Virus record (IMG/VR): IMGVR_UViG_3300033153_008173
Location: 1-40,853 of that record
Direction: 5' to 3' (one strand)
Source of the DNA: a virus
Length of the DNA stretch: 40,853 bases
Both the position numbers and the translations under genes were made by a program. The notes below the pieces were generated by a model, which was given only the letters and a program-made list of their open reading frames with translations, searched no databases and was not told the origin of the DNA. This document shows positions 2,101 to 40,853 of this stretch, in pieces (the stretch's first letter is position 1; each line of letters begins with the position of its first letter).

Positions 2101-3363
2101 TTAAATTGATTGAGGTTTCCAAGGTTCTTTGTCTAAAGCCTCAATTGCCTTGGCTTTCTCTATGATACCATACGAAAGTTTTTCACCTCTTAATTCTGCC
2201 ATGGCTTCAATTTTCCCATGCAACGTATCAGCTTCAAGGACTCGTTTAGCTCTCACAGTTTCTCGCGGCTTTCTGATTATGGATAGTTTTAAATCCTTCG
2301 CACCTGCAGAAAAAAAACAGCGCTCAATCTCAGATTGATTAATATTGTTCGCATCATCTTGCCACATTGTTAAAACCATTTTCACGTGACAGCCAAGATA
2401 TAGGTCAACCTGAAAATCTTTCATTGACTCAATATAATCAAGGATGGGGATGTCTTGACTATTGTCCGTAAAATCAATTTTTATATTTACCATTTGTCTC
2501 GCAGGTGTTTTTATGAAAACAGATTCAATAAGACATGGCTCATAGTCGTCAGTATTTGCATTTATCATTTGATCTATCTCATGGACATAAAACCCTTTCG
2601 CCTCAGTCTCTCCGTAGTTCATCCTGGTTGGTGAACCGGAATAATATACACCATCGCCCATGGCCTGAGCTTTGTGAATATGCCCATAGCAAACTAAATC
2701 AGCATTTAAGGTTTTTAACTGGGCCTTTGATACCTCGATATCATGACCTATTAACTGTTGAGTCTCGGATATAAAAGCGCCACCTATTTGCCCGTGACCA
2801 TTTGCTATGCGCGGTACATCATTAAATAATTTCGCCTTGTGTCCGAACGCAGCGAACATGTTTCCCATTGCATCACCGATAGCATTTTCAGTATCTTCAA
2901 TGGAAAGATCATTTATAAAATATTGTTTGGTCGGTTGCGGGATCTGAGTTAGAATGAACGATGGCTTAAAAGCTTCAGGAAAAGATCTGGCTCCCAATTC
3001 ATCTAATAGATGCCACTCATAATAATTTCTTTCATAGAAATATTGCCCCGGAATATCAGATACCAAGACAGGATATTTGCCCTTGCATTCCCTGAGAGCA
3101 AGAGCCGCCTTTCCGTCATGAGATGGTGTCCCGATAACAATAGCAACCGGAGCTACCTCTAACATTGAATTGATAATATTTAGTATCGTCCTGGACGAAC
3201 GAGAATCGAAATTAAGACTTCTCGAATCTGTTATATCGCCAGAAATACAGATCAAATCCGGCTTTTCATGGACTGCACACCCCAAAATAAATGCCACGCA
3301 TTTCTCAATTTCATCATGATCTTTTTCTCTGAAATGCCAATCTGCCGTGTGTAAAATCTTCAT
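2101..3363 (-). CDS. sbcD: SbcD/Mre11-like metallophosphoesterase nuclease subunit
   Basis: A 420-aa partner nuclease of the SbcC/Rad50-like ATPase. The calcineurin-like metal-binding motifs are visible in order: ADWH (D8, H10), GDITD (42-46), a GTPSHD block near 78-83 in place of the usual GNHD, an NGHG block near 190, and CYGHIH near 226-231. The family cleaves DNA ends and hairpins with Mn2+. The start follows AAGGAG, and the gene begins one base after the stop of the upstream gene. The Asn-to-Thr/Ser change in the third motif is a real difference from the textbook consensus, but its His-Asp pair is kept. Confidence 0.88.
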   Translation of the reverse strand: MKILHTADWHFREKDHDEIEKCVAFILGCAVHEKPDLICISGDITDSRSLNFDSRSSRTILNIINSMLEVAPVAIVIGTPSHDGKAALALRECKGKYPVLVSDIPGQYFYERNYYEWHLLDELGARSFPEAFKPSFILTQIPQPTKQYFINDLSIEDTENAIGDAMGNMFAAFGHKAKLFNDVPRIANGHGQIGGAFISETQQLIGHDIEVSKAQLKTLNADLVCYGHIHKAQAMGDGVYYSGSPTRMNYGETEAKGFYVHEIDQMINANTDDYEPCLIESVFIKTPARQMVNIKIDFTDNSQDIPILDYIESMKDFQVDLYLGCHVKMVLTMWQDDANNINQSEIERCFFSAGAKDLKLSIIRKPRETVRAKRVLEADTLHGKIEAMAELRGEKLSYGIIEKAKAIEALDKEPWKPQSI

Positions 3364-4446: not shown

Positions 4447-4562
4447 CTATTTTTATTAAAAATGTATTGATTTTGTTTTTGTTTTGTATTATCCATCTAT
4501 GGAGTAATTAAACATTTCAATATATAATCAGCAATGAACAAAAAGGCGTGGAACAAGAGAAA

Positions 4563-5285
4563 ATGAAAAAATATCTATCATTCGGAGGCGGTGTCAACAG
4601 TGTTTCAATGATGTTGATGCTACTCGACCAGGGCGATGAATTTGAAGCAATTTTTGTGGATCATGGCACAGATTGGCCCGAAACTTATGAATATTTTGAA
4701 ATGTTTCAGGGGTGGCTTAAAGATCATGGGCATAATCTTATTACGGTTTTAAAACCAAATGTTGAAGGAATTGCAAATCTTTATAATTTTTATTGGGAAA
4801 AACAATGGGTCCCATCTTTTATGGCCAGAATATGTACCGATAAATTTAAGATCCGGCCCATTCACAAGCATGTCGAAAAACCTTGTTTTATGCTTTTAGG
4901 TATAGATTTCGGAGAAATTAAAAGGGCCAAGATATCAACAAACAAGGGGATTGAAAACAGATATCCTTTAATTGAGCATGAAATTGACCGGGATGGATGT
5001 AAGAAAATAATTGCTGATCACGGGTTGCCAGTCCCAATGAAATCAGGTTGCTACATTTGCCCATTCCAACGAATTGGACAATGGATAGAGCTTAGGAAAA
5101 TCCATCCTGAATTATTCTGCAAAGCTGAACAACTTGAAATAAGAAATATGGATTACAGAAGATCAATTGGTAAAAAGGCATTCACCTTGAACAACAGCGG
5201 GAAAAAGTTGAAATCGGTGATTCAAGAGGACCAAATGCACCTGTTTGAACAGGACAATTACCCACCGTGTCAGTGTGGGTTGTGA
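4563..5285 (+). CDS. PP-loop ATPase, PAPS-reductase-like family
   Basis: A 240-aa protein of the adenine-nucleotide alpha-hydrolase superfamily. The PP-loop is SFGGGVNS (residues 6-13), followed by FVDHGTDWPETYE (31-43) and a RICTDKFKIRP segment (C91), all typical of phage phosphoadenosine-phosphosulfate-reductase-like proteins. Extra cysteines at C163/C166 (CYIC) and C236/C238 (CQC at the C-terminus) could hold an Fe-S cluster or metal. Family members activate a substrate as an adenylate, in sulfur assimilation, tRNA thiolation or DNA phosphorothioation (DndC). Which of these applies cannot be told here. I chose the ATG at 4563; a GTG at 4548 is in frame but has no usable SD. It is the first gene of a plus-strand operon. 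Confidence 0.8.
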   Translation: MKKYLSFGGGVNSVSMMLMLLDQGDEFEAIFVDHGTDWPETYEYFEMFQGWLKDHGHNLITVLKPNVEGIANLYNFYWEKQWVPSFMARICTDKFKIRPIHKHVEKPCFMLLGIDFGEIKRAKISTNKGIENRYPLIEHEIDRDGCKKIIADHGLPVPMKSGCYICPFQRIGQWIELRKIHPELFCKAEQLEIRNMDYRRSIGKKAFTLNNSGKKLKSVIQEDQMHLFEQDNYPPCQCGL

Positions 5286-16740: not shown

Positions 16741-17281
16741 CACTAACCTCCACTTGCTCGTTTAAATCTGATTCTGCCGACAATGTTAAACCAATATTGA
16801 CAGACCCTATTGTATTTATATCAACCTGCCGTTTAGACTGGTATCTTAATGTTATATCCACCGATCTTCTCTGTTCATATTTTGAACCCATAACCGTATC
16901 AAGATTTACAATATCGCCAGCAATGCCCCATGTCAAATCATTTTCAGCAAGATATATTTGACCTGCTGTTGTTGATGGATAAGACAAAAGCCCCTTGGCA
17001 TTATCGGCCGCACCGTCTTTATAAAATTGTACTGAATAAGTTATCGATCTTCGGCCCTGCTGTTTTAAAGTTTTTTGCAATTCTGGGTCCGGCCCTTCAA
17101 TTGCAACTTCCTGATCTACTCCGCTTCCTATCTCAATGATTTCAAGAACAGAAGCATATGGGACAATCGGAGCCGGATTTGAATCATTACCAGGAATAAC
17201 AAATTTACTATCAAGGCCGGAAGCCAAAGCTATAAATTTTCTGACTTTTATATCAAGATCATTTTGCAATGGATCAGCCAT
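16733..17281 (-). CDS. Neck/tail terminator protein (LIC_12616-like)
   Basis: A 182-aa protein before the sheath. I chose ATG 17281, behind GGAG, rather than a longer frame starting at 17338 with no SD. The order of connector, neck proteins, this gene and sheath is that of DUF3383/DUF3277 phages, where this slot holds the tail terminator capping the tube. The segment RSITYSVQFYKDGA and RSVDITLRYQSKRQVD in the beta-rich C-terminal half fits this family. Confidence 0.68.
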   Translation of the reverse strand: MADPLQNDLDIKVRKFIALASGLDSKFVIPGNDSNPAPIVPYASVLEIIEIGSGVDQEVAIEGPDPELQKTLKQQGRRSITYSVQFYKDGAADNAKGLLSYPSTTAGQIYLAENDLTWGIAGDIVNLDTVMGSKYEQRRSVDITLRYQSKRQVDINTIGSVNIGLTLSAESDLNEQVEVSDA

Positions 17282-26254: not shown

Positions 26255-26386
26255 TTAATCTCTTATAACAGCAGCGAGAGCAACGCAAGAGGAGGTCACT
26301 ATTTCACTTGCATAAGTCGTTTTAAATACAATACACATTGCCGCAACGATTGCCATTAACACCATGCCAAGATATTTATCCTTCAT
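26255..26386 (-). CDS. 43-aa membrane peptide
   Basis: A 43-aa protein (132 bp) starting behind TAGGAGC with 8-nt spacing. Residues about 5-21 (YLGMVLMAIVAAMCIVF) are a strong membrane segment, possibly a signal anchor. The second half is mildly hydrophobic (SCVALAAVIRD). It begins 14 bp after the UAA that would end the extended Mu-F-like frame. This tight spacing argues that the upstream gene really runs to that UAA. Function unknown; a holin-like or inner-membrane role is possible. Confidence 0.6.
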   Translation of the reverse strand: MKDKYLGMVLMAIVAAMCIVFKTTYASEIVTSSCVALAAVIRD

Positions 26387-26400
26387 TTTTATAGCTCCTA

Positions 26401-27204
26401 TTATTGATTATTTTTATTTTGTTCCTGTAACTCAGGAATAACAGGTATAGCCACTCAACGTCAATTAAAAGCTTCCCCTGGATGTCCATCGGGCGGTGGG
26501 GCTATCCACATAAATTCTACGCCATTCCTGGAATAATGATCCATATGGCCAGGAGTTCCGTCTGGATATTCTCCGCCAGGCGTCCCGACGACCCTTTCAT
26601 CTTCCGACGTTTGCCATATATAAGATTTAATACCCAAATCGGTTTGCCTAACCTGATTCAATTTTCCGATTATCTTTTCGGTCTGATCACGGGCAATAAA
26701 CCTGGCCCGATTTTTTGCTACCTTGAACCTTGTTTCAAGGGCCTGAACCATAGCCTGCTGATCAAAACCTTTTTGAGTAAATATTTTATCAAACTGACCT
26801 ACAATCTGTAAATTTAATTTTTGAGGAATACTTTTTATTAATGCAACATTATCAAATAGAGCCTGAGTCATAAGGGGCCTTATATTAAGATCAGACATAA
26901 ACGGATTTATATTGACACCAAGCGCAGATTGGAATGCTTTAATCATTTGGGCTTTGTGAACGCGCCGAATATTATCAAGGGCCCCCTGGACGGTTGTAAT
27001 CCCGAATGCATCACCGGATGTCATAAAAGCAAATTCGGCATCAACAGCCCTTTGGTACGCGGACTTTATTTTAGGGACTGATTCAAGCCTGGCTTTAGTA
27101 CGGGATAAAAGAGGATCAAGGATATCTTTTTTGATTGCTTTAAAATAGGCGGATTCATCTTTTCGCCTTGGACTTATGCCCTTTGGTGTTCTGGGCTTTG
27201 GCAT
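26401..27204 (-). CDS. Mu gpF/SPP1 gp7-like minor head protein with two in-frame UGA codons at the CRC motif
   Basis: A minor head protein of the Phage_Mu_F family. The hallmark DQTEKIIGKLNQVRQ, then GIKSYIWQTSEDERVV, then NGVEFMWIAPPPDGHPGEAFN, are clear. In this family HPGExxN is followed by Cys-Arg-Cys and then a V/A-x-P-V ending. Here the codons after Asn are TGA CGT TGA (26463-26455). The same frame then reads VAIPVIPELQEQNKNNQ before TAA at 26401. The conventional frame stops at the first TGA (247 aa, 26461-27204); the extended one is 267 codons. The tail after the UGAs matches the family and no other gene fills the gap. UGA is an ordinary stop elsewhere in this genome, so any reading through is local. 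Selenocysteine is the leading explanation, Cys or suppressor reading the alternatives. Confidence 0.78.
26424..26445 (-). promoter_or_regulatory. Hairpin downstream of the two UGA codons, possible SECIS-like element
   Basis: On the mRNA a 22-nt stem-loop (CCUGU pairs with ACAGG, then one U-U mismatch, three more pairs, and a CCUG loop) begins 9 nt after the second UGA. The apical loop lies about 18 nt after the second UGA and 24 nt after the first. Both fit the 16-37 nt range reported for bacterial SECIS. Neither of the first two loop bases is G, unlike the usual rule, so support is only partial. Confidence 0.3.
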
Positions 27205-38092: not shown

Positions 38093-39849
38093 TTTTTACC
38101 CTTTAAATATTCAAAAATATCATAATTTGATTGCTTTATAATATCACTACTCCCAAAAAAAGGCTTAACTTTGTTCGATACCCTTATGCTTTTTCCACGC
38201 CGAATACTAATGCCCTTAATATCCCTTATAGTCTCCGTTTTTTCGACAGGATAATATTCAATAAGGTATGTCATAAGCGTTTTTAATTCAGGCAAGGTCA
38301 TAAGCTTCCTGGCCTTTCCAAATTTTAGCTTAAGCTCATGATTTATACGCTCTTGCCGATATCTATTTTTAAAACAATATTGGTTGACATGGTTATGGAC
38401 CGTTTTTCTTGTGAATAACTCCTGTTCTTTTATTGTCATCACAGGGATATTTATTTCAGTTTCTTGGTTTACGCTACCATTATTCTCAAGGCCCATGAGA
38501 AAACTATCTTTCCCGGTTATTTTTGATGATATCGGAATTATCTCACCTTTTTTTATTGCATCAGGGTCCAGTTCTTTATCTTGTTCTATATCAATTTCTT
38601 TTTCTTCTTTAATTTTAGAGAAAAATTCAATTGCAGAAACCTGTTGTTTCCTGATCATATCAACGACTTTTTTAAATTGCCTATCCATCGGTGCAAATAC
38701 ATAACATCTTTGAGATTCATATGGGCCAGCAGCCCTATTTTTATCAATCCTTACTCCCCTGGCAAGCATCTGCTCTATCCATTCCCTTGATCTGATATTA
38801 GTAAGAACGCAAATATGGGTTATACCAGGAACATCGAGCCCCTCATATGCCATGGCAATAGTCACAAGGCAACAACACTTACCTGACTTGAACCGTTTGA
38901 TTGACTTAATAGCTTTTTTTGATTCGTGCGATATTGCTATTTCTGCTTTTATACCTACGCCACGATTAAGCATAAAGACTGCATTTCCAGCCTGTTTTCT
39001 GCCAGCCGTTACAATCAAAAGTTTTGCATTGCTATTCTTCTTTTTAAGGCTTTGCCATGATACCACACACGATCTAAGTAAACCGGTCGCAAACTCAGAG
39101 TTAATGGCAGTAAACAAAGCCTCTGACTTTTGTTGTGGAGTATATGCCTGTTTGAATGATTTAACGCTGGCATGCTCCCCATTTCTTTTCGCCCATTCAA
39201 ATTCACCATCCGACAAATGGAACTCAATAGGAAGAATAGCTTTTTCTTTTAATGCGTCAATCCGTGAATAAACAATTAAAGCTTCTTCGCCACAATTTTT
39301 AAAATATGGCATCTTGTTTTTGTAATTAATATAAGCAATTTCTTTCTTATCACCACGACCAAGGGTGCCGGTCATCTTTATTAGGAAATGACCGGCCATG
39401 ACTATTCTATTAATTGCTTCATGCCATACACCATCCTTTTCAAGATGATGAAATTCATCCAAAATGATTATATATCTTTTTGATTTAACCTCATTGAGAA
39501 CAGTGTTTTTGGTATCTACACCAATCGCCTGATATGTCGTTACAAAGCCATTTGTTCCACGGCACGGATTATACTCGTTTGTTGATTCACGGATTTGGAA
39601 ACTATGATTAAAAAGATCCATAAAAAAGGGATCTATAAAACCGTGCTCCCCCTGGTTTTGCAATGCAGACCGTGGCACAATCCATAAAACGGCATCAGCC
39701 AAACCAGCTTTGATTAATTCACACGCCTGGATGGGGATGGTGCTTTTCCCCGCGCCAGGTGTGCCAAGTATATCAATGATTTTTACGCCGGACCCTGATA
39801 TAATACCGGAAATAACATACTTGAAATCTGCTTGCATTTTTCTTAGCAT
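38086..39849 (-). CDS. Superfamily 2 DNA/RNA helicase
   Basis: A 587-aa helicase. Walker A is GTPGAGKST (29-37), DExH box is DEFHH (131-135), motif III is MTGT (about 157), and motif VI is IEQMLARGVRID (near 360). It resembles phage SF2 helicases of the ResIII/UvsW type used in replication or recombination. The last 190 residues are charged, with no recognised domain. The start overlaps the SbcC stop (TAATG), so the pair is co-translated. Confidence 0.83.
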   Translation of the reverse strand: MLRKMQADFKYVISGIISGSGVKIIDILGTPGAGKSTIPIQACELIKAGLADAVLWIVPRSALQNQGEHGFIDPFFMDLFNHSFQIRESTNEYNPCRGTNGFVTTYQAIGVDTKNTVLNEVKSKRYIIILDEFHHLEKDGVWHEAINRIVMAGHFLIKMTGTLGRGDKKEIAYINYKNKMPYFKNCGEEALIVYSRIDALKEKAILPIEFHLSDGEFEWAKRNGEHASVKSFKQAYTPQQKSEALFTAINSEFATGLLRSCVVSWQSLKKKNSNAKLLIVTAGRKQAGNAVFMLNRGVGIKAEIAISHESKKAIKSIKRFKSGKCCCLVTIAMAYEGLDVPGITHICVLTNIRSREWIEQMLARGVRIDKNRAAGPYESQRCYVFAPMDRQFKKVVDMIRKQQVSAIEFFSKIKEEKEIDIEQDKELDPDAIKKGEIIPISSKITGKDSFLMGLENNGSVNQETEINIPVMTIKEQELFTRKTVHNHVNQYCFKNRYRQERINHELKLKFGKARKLMTLPELKTLMTYLIEYYPVEKTETIRDIKGISIRRGKSIRVSNKVKPFFGSSDIIKQSNYDIFEYLKGKKC

Positions 39850-40853
39850 TACAATGCCCCAAAATCAATAACATGATCAGCCATGGCAACCACATCGGGA
39901 TTATGGGAAATAAAAAAGCATGTTTCGAAATCCCCGGTTGACATCATAGACCTATATAATTTTATAAACTCAAGAGCCTTTTCACCGTCAAGGGCACCAT
40001 CTTCTTCATCGGCATATAATGTCATGAAATTGCGACCAGACTTATGTTTTGATACAAGGGTCATGCCAAGACTCAGCGCTTTAGATATCCATACTTTTTG
40101 ACCGCCTGACAGATTAGAAAAATCATCTTCTGATCCGTCCTCACGAATAACTTTAATCCAAAAAACTTCCCGGCCCGATTCAGGATCTTGAGTGATTATT
40201 TTTATTTGTGACTCAAGACCGAACGCTTTTTCGAGCAAAGTGTTTGCCTCTGCTGTGATTAATGGGGCGGCTCCATCTATCTCAAGTGCTTGTAAGCCGG
40301 TCTTTGAACATGCCAACCGCAAATATTCCCATTCAGATAATTCTTTTTTAATGGTTTTTTCATCAGATTGCTTTGATTCAAGATCCTTTGAGATTGTTTC
40401 TTTCCTGATCCTGTTGTTTTTCAAGACGGCTTTGTCTTGTTTCAATTTATTGAGTTTTTCTGAAAACTTAAGTTTTTCAGCAACTGAAAATGTTTTTGAT
40501 ATCTCAGTGTCAGTTATTTTTGCAAGAATTTTTAAATCAATACCTTTTAAAATTTTTGATATTGCCTTTTCTTTTAAAAGAATATTTTTCGCAGACACGG
40601 AAATATTTTCTGTATGATCTTTTTTCCTGATATCATAATCAGATTCAAGCTGCTTTGTCTGTTTTCCAATGGAAAGTTTTTTCTCTTCCGCAACTTCAAT
40701 CTGTGATTTTCTAGAAGACAGGTCCTTAAGATCAGCGATCAATACCCTATTCTCTGTCAGTTTTGATTTATAAAAGCCCTTAAAATCATCCACAATAAGA
40801 TAATCAGATAACAATTGTGTCTTTGTTTTGCCAAACACATTGAGTTTTGAGTT
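39849..40853 (-). CDS. sbcC: SbcC/Rad50-like ATPase, C-terminal part (joined to 1-1614)
   Basis: The C-terminal 297 codons lie at 39849-40739; bases 40740-40853 repeat the window start. It carries the ABC signature LSGGQ (about residue 750 of the joined protein), Walker B with a Glu-Glu-Asp (LYADEEDGALD), and the D-loop/H-loop region FISHNPDVVAMAD. An internal ATG at 40838 is not a real start. The long Lys/Glu helical segment before it is the returning arm of the coiled coil. Confidence 0.92.
   Translation of the reverse strand, partial: NSKLNVFGKTKTQLLSDYLIVDDFKGFYKSKLTENRVLIADLKDLSSRKSQIEVAEEKKLSIGKQTKQLESDYDIRKKDHTENISVSAKNILLKEKAISKILKGIDLKILAKITDTEISKTFSVAEKLKFSEKLNKLKQDKAVLKNNRIRKETISKDLESKQSDEKTIKKELSEWEYLRLACSKTGLQALEIDGAAPLITAEANTLLEKAFGLESQIKIITQDPESGREVFWIKVIREDGSEDDFSNLSGGQKVWISKALSLGMTLVSKHKSGRNFMTLYADEEDGALDGEKALEFIKLYRSMMSTGDFETCFFISHNPDVVAMADHVIDFGAL
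40740..40853. repeat. Terminal overlap of a circular genome, right copy
   Basis: Identical over 114 bases to positions 1-114. Joining at this point gives a circle of 40,739 bp. Confidence 0.93.

Follow-up and report, generated by a model that had tools for sequence, protein, structure and literature searches.

How is a phage head protein made when two in-frame UGA codons interrupt its gene at a motif that reads Cys-Arg-Cys in the rest of its family? The window, meaning the whole stretch of DNA analysed here, is a 40,853-base IMG/VR virus record with genes including portal, head maturation protease, capsid, tail sheath-like DUF3383 and terminase, and the interrupted gene, muF, is located in the head module of this phage. 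The features on which the argument rests are listed below.

26401..27204, minus strand: muF-like minor head protein gene, 267 aa plus UAA if read through both UGAs (translated with TGA = U)
26461..26463, minus strand: UGA no. 1, codon 248, first Cys of the Cys-Arg-Cys motif, proposed Sec
26455..26457, minus strand: UGA no. 2, codon 250, second Cys of the Cys-Arg-Cys motif, proposed Sec
26401..26454, minus strand: conserved tail VAIPVIPELQEQNKNNQ and natural stop UAA; synonymous and non-synonymous differences were compared over codons 251–260
26422..26438, minus strand: candidate bacterial SECIS hairpin UUCCUG-AGUUA-CAGGAA, within the coding sequence, present in four of four UGA lineages
26255..26386, minus strand: next small gene, 43 aa, sequence read directly; outside the proposed mechanism, it marks the true end of muF

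The muF gene starts with an ATG at 27204, and its standard open reading frame up to the first UGA spans 26461–27204 (247 aa). The codons ahead of this UGA are CAT CCA GGG GAA GCT TTT AAT (HPGEAFN), followed by the motif itself, TGA (26463–26461), CGT, TGA (26457–26455). Seventeen in-frame codons then separate the second UGA from the UAA at 26403–26401, namely GTG GCT ATA CCT GTT ATT CCT GAG TTA CAG (VAIPVIPELQ) and GAA CAA AAT AAA AAT AAT CAA. The small gene begins at an ATG at 26386, 14 nt past the muF UAA, and has its own Shine-Dalgarno sequence (AGGAG, 26399–26395). The sequence-only reading of this locus had claimed two UGAs exactly at the Cys-Arg-Cys of a Mu-F-like protein, with a family-like tail, a UAA and, 14 bp on, an ATG with a Shine-Dalgarno sequence, and all of this held.

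The encoded protein is a MuF/SPP1-gp7 head protein according to Pfam PF04233 (E 6.6e-10), PHROG 324 (E 5.2e-47) and TIGR01641 (E 1.2e-12), with scores above the curated cut-offs for PF04233 (40.2 vs 29.6 bits) and TIGR01641 (48.1 vs 39.65). It has in common with the Phage Mu F/SPP1 gp7 family (PF04233, TIGR01641) the domain, the gene position in a portal-protease-capsid head module and the His...His-Pro-Gly...Cys-x-Cys tail. It differs in that UGA replaces Cys of the Cys-Arg-Cys motif, which occurs in this phage group only, whereas all other members examined have Cys. Across 15 MuF sequences, with UGA read as Cys/Sec, His223 and position 248 were invariant, and His241, Arg249 and position 250 nearly so. 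A confident AlphaFold model of MuF based on 15 sequences (pLDDT 89.7, pTM 0.84) has a helical N-terminal part and places the motif before a short C-terminal strand; no solved structures resembling MuF by sequence or fold were found. A function for the motif as a metal site (His223, His241, Cys/Sec248, Cys/Sec250) or as a redox pair is plausible and no more than a possibility, being inferred without any measured metal-site geometry. Sec usually occurs in catalytic redox sites, and this motif is not known to be one, which counts against a Sec reading. As a separate observation, the head protein of a distant MuF relative (L018:1312–2784) extends at its C-terminus into a segment containing FTHNHPSG, which resembles a fused JAB/MPN-type metalloprotease-like domain.

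Close relatives of muF, with 57–84% identity in alignments over the whole length, were present on IMG/VR contigs from several metagenomes, and all four combinations of Cys and UGA occur. The window and L001 (84% identical) carry UGA-Arg-UGA, L004 and L005 (77% identical) carry UGA-Arg-TGC, and L002 (79% identical) carries TGT-Arg-UGA. Cys-Arg-Cys is found in L003, L006 and L008 and also in the more distant members L009–L018, L033 and L045–L047; the L007 contig is cut after the first Cys of the motif. The MuF of L030 (IMGVR_UViG_3300017963_003973), from a second metagenome, matches that of L002, the Cys-Arg-UGA type, and this contig ends ahead of the motif. Separate exchange at each site between UGA and Cys only is the classical diagnostic mark of selenocysteine, and as an exchange it is shown here.

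The muF-only tree was unresolved, hence a tree of nine genes was used, which placed L003, L004, L006 and L008 together against the window, L001 and L002 (support 100/96). As UGA is present at site 1 in the window, L001 and L004 but not in L002 or L003, this tree implies at least three separate changes between Cys and UGA, involving both sites (site 1, at least two; site 2, at least one). The four UGA lineages are nevertheless related and not fully independent. The reach of the trait was addressed by scanning 2.9 million viral contigs for two patterns, N-UGA-[RS]-TGH-x-A-I-P and N-Cys-[RS]-UGA-x-A-I-P. The two scans returned 44 stretches, and a MuF frame upstream (253–254 open codons) was seen only in this phage group; all other matches had 0–87 open codons upstream and no MuF sequence, and show what accidental matches look like. 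UGA-specific motif scans thus found no UGA in MuF outside this phage group, while a MuF with a different tail would escape them, and the trait is confined to the group as far as this viral collection and this tail motif show.

The region behind the UGAs is translated. Over tail codons 251–260, the four UGA lineages show 24 synonymous vs six non-synonymous pairwise codon differences, with pS of 0.39–0.78 vs pN of 0–0.13, and pS in the muF body is 0.72–0.82. Synonymous sites are near saturation, with only 25 of 148 amino-acid-conserved codons identical in all four UGA lineages. The tail is therefore under purifying selection despite near-saturated synonymous sites, and a frame ending at the first UGA would not keep such conservation, which shows translation past both UGAs.

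These data bear on the simplest alternative, that the gene is decayed or that the UGAs are sequencing or assembly errors. In its favour, a single base separates UGA from the Cys codons. Against it, several distinct UGA alleles occur across several metagenomes, and L004 and L005 are identical over 10,780 nt and carry the same allele in two separate metagenomes, which argues against sequencing error. The purifying selection behind the UGAs and the intact gene in syntenic head modules also contradict decay, and we consider this explanation all but excluded.

A second alternative is genome-wide reassignment of UGA in the host, to Cys, Trp or Gly. Nothing favours it beyond the two codons themselves. 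The 48 genes of the window end in TAA (28), TGA (13) and TAG (7), and Cys is encoded by TGT or TGC at 102 codons; at 17274 and 28578, UGA was confirmed to act as a normal stop. When the genes of the window were read through TGA and compared with the relatives' contigs, a comparison restricted to coding frames, an in-frame TGA that aligned with Cys and had conserved sequence on both flanks was seen at the muF motif alone. The remaining TGA alignments fall beyond gene ends or starts, in stretches that we interpret as overlapping neighbouring genes. Reassignment is already contradicted by these counts and can be practically ruled out; UGA is recoded at one place only in this phage, since it is a normal stop elsewhere and no other TGA aligns with Cys. 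Separately, muF itself ends naturally in UGA in L001, L002 and L004, and conservation stops there; this provides an internal control for the dependence of UGA decoding on context.

Two further claims of the sequence-only reading can be judged at this point. Its argument that decay is unlikely held, as relatives show all Cys/UGA combinations with a conserved tail, and so did its claim that UGA serves as a normal stop without a global code change. It had also proposed checking for relatives that end at the first UGA with no similarity in the tail; this is not what they show, as tails are conserved and exchange is separate at each site.

An element that could direct such recoding, and that goes beyond what had been claimed earlier, is a SECIS-like hairpin common to the UGA lineages and broken in two testable Cys lineages. 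It has a 6 bp stem and a 5 nt AGUUR loop with G at loop position 2, and the loop lies 22 nt after the second UGA and 28 nt after the first. Its counterparts at the same place are UUCCUG-AGUUG-CAGGGG in L001 and UCCCUG-AGUUA-CAGGGA in L002 and L004. Published rules for bacterial SECIS elements specify a loop of 3–9 nt, a stem of 4–16 bp, G in the first two loop positions and 16–37 nt from UGA to loop (PMC13188914), and the hairpin meets the limits on loop size, stem length, loop G and spacing in four of four UGA lineages. With ribosome-covered bases masked, folding predictions return it for all four. In L003 and L006, the two testable Cys-Arg-Cys relatives, the stem is absent or broken, so that restriction of the hairpin to UGA lineages is shown as far as these two relatives allow. 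L003:1800–1851 keeps CCT GAG TTG of the 5' half with the 3' half broken, possibly a remnant of a former SECIS.

Stability is the weaker side of this evidence. The published free-energy limit is at or below −7.5 kcal/mol (PMC13188914), and values over 52 nt were −7.5 for the window, exactly at the limit, −10.7 for L001 (an alternative fold), −19.2 for L002 and −12.9 for L004. The hairpin alone ranges from −5.2 to −8.7 kcal/mol, with weak values for both the window (−6.3) and L001 (−5.2), and in L001 the alternative fold beats it unless ribosome-covered bases are masked. When synonymous codons were randomised, 1.2–2.3% of the versions of each sequence formed such a hairpin at that place, and 0 of 100,000 trials produced it in all four at once. 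This treats the lineages as independent, which the near-saturated synonymous sites make reasonable, not exact. One pair of the hairpin has changed on both sides, a compensatory change, among the four UGA lineages; pair covariation did not exceed that of shuffles (258 of 500 reach it), and with only four sequences formal counts are uninformative. The hairpin was also considered as a terminator or another known RNA, and this was rejected, with no terminator-like site and no Rfam match at E ≤ 5.

A third alternative is programmed or leaky readthrough, in which near-cognate tRNAs read the UGAs, so that most of the product would be the 247-aa form and a smaller share the extended one. A C directly after UGA makes the stop leaky, and this is the base that follows the first UGA in the window, L001 and L004, which speaks for readthrough. 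However, the second UGA of L002 is followed by G, and the long form would be very rare, as it requires readthrough of two UGAs six bases apart. Readthrough also leaves unexplained why UGA appears only at the two Cys codons and is exchanged for Cys in relatives, and why the hairpin is lost in Cys lineages. We regard it as very unlikely.

The best explanation, to which we assign a probability of roughly 0.76, is SECIS-directed insertion of selenocysteine at both UGAs by host machinery into a phage minor head protein. The inserted amino acid has not been shown directly and the Sec machinery of the host is inferred. During infection, a host SelB-GTP-Sec-tRNA(Sec) complex would bind the in-frame hairpin (26438–26422), and a single SECIS would serve for selenocysteine insertion at both UGA codons, which lie six nucleotides apart. 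The predicted full-length product would end ...Sec-Arg-Sec-VAIPVIPELQ..., with Sec-Arg-Sec where the family has Cys-Arg-Cys. Four points are inferences, made without peptide, 75Se or read-level data: the identity of the residue as Sec, the action of a single hairpin on both codons, Sec decoding by the host, and the metal- or redox-active nature of the motif. The earlier proposal of Sec at both sites is supported as the best reading, with UGA read as Cys through selC*/SelB* still possible. It had further been claimed that a short and a long form could both be made; a productive 247-aa form has no conservation evidence behind it and is at most possible, and it may be a by-product of incomplete recoding.

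The machinery required would have to come from the cell. ARAGORN detected no tRNA or tmRNA in the window, eight phage records gave no match to RF01852 (tRNA-Sec), and no SelA was found in the window; a phage without its own tRNA-Sec would depend on a Sec-decoding host. Two genome scans gave no match to a host genome, and phage and plasmid collections gave distant protein matches or nothing. Bacteria rich in Sec belong mainly to the delta-proteobacteria, Clostridia and Synergistetes, and most are anaerobes (PMC5029168).

The main rival to selenocysteine is SECIS-dependent recoding of UGA to Cys, always or in part, by the selC* tRNA-Cys(UCA), SelB* and CysRS* of Desulfobacterales. A tRNA-Cys(UCA) with extra selB* and cysS* genes has been reported for anaerobic delta-proteobacteria (PMC7609411), and this system would likewise read UGA with a SelB-like factor, but inserts Cys. 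The family residue is Cys, so that Cys would be functionally neutral, and the hairpin and the Cys/UGA exchange fit equally well. Against it, there is no host assignment, and such systems have been described from few groups only. Carriers of selC* also probably have or had Sec machinery, and we infer that Sec would compete at the same codons. On balance we consider Cys insertion unlikely.

Selenocysteine at this motif would be both like and unlike known systems. As in bacterial selenoproteins (formate dehydrogenase, CxxU/UxxC families; PMC13188914), UGA aligns with Cys of homologues and a hairpin lies directly downstream inside the coding sequence, with 16–37 nt spacing and a loop G. The difference is that the protein here is a phage virion protein and not a redox enzyme, with a U-x-U arrangement in which both sites are exchangeable and one hairpin accompanies two UGAs. 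The glutathione peroxidase selenoproteins of poxviruses (molluscum contagiosum, fowlpox; PMC8310308) are similarly virus-encoded and use host Sec machinery. In contrast, they are redox enzymes that eukaryotic viruses captured from their hosts, they use a eukaryotic SECIS, and they are neither structural nor bacterial (PMC8310308). Basilisk-like Bacillus phages also link phages to Sec decoding, through a tRNA-Sec gene (PMC6145125), but that gene comes without a reported phage selenoprotein, whereas no tRNA-Sec match was obtained in the phages described here.

Nearly all known selenoproteins are cellular redox enzymes. A 2026 review and catalogue of the prokaryotic selenoproteome (PMC13188914) contains no phage, virus, capsid, PF04233, TIGR01641 or UxU. 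The open-licence full-text literature that we searched held no phage selenoprotein, only the tRNA-Sec gene (PMC6145125) and the poxvirus glutathione peroxidases (PMC8310308), and absence from this literature is not proof. Within it, MuF would be the first known selenium-containing phage structural protein if the inserted residue is Sec, as is inferred to be likely. If true, a new kind of protein would join those that carry Sec, and both the assembly and the host range of the phage would be tied to Sec decoding. Because standard gene callers cut such genes short at the UGA, other viral selenoproteins may have been missed.

A bolder reading is that virions of phages infecting Sec-decoding anaerobes contain a Sec-Arg-Sec pair in a minor head protein, made with one compact SECIS for two UGAs. 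Capsid assembly would then hinge on the host's selenium status and on its Sec machinery, restricting the phage to Sec-decoding cells. We favour this only by a narrow margin. The four natural alleles (U-R-U, U-R-C, C-R-U and C-R-C) form a ready series for asking whether one SECIS serves two adjacent UGAs and what kind of selection acts on the exchange of Cys and Sec.

Two observations concern the window outside its head module. A PAPS-reductase-domain gene (4548–5285, plus strand) lies on the opposite strand, has no counterpart in the relatives' contigs and is possibly a cargo or modification gene. An SbcC-like subunit (39849–40838, minus strand) and an SbcD-like calcineurin-like phosphoesterase (2101–3363, minus strand) lie near opposite ends of the record, which may be a circularly permuted or wrapped genome, bringing the two genes close together.
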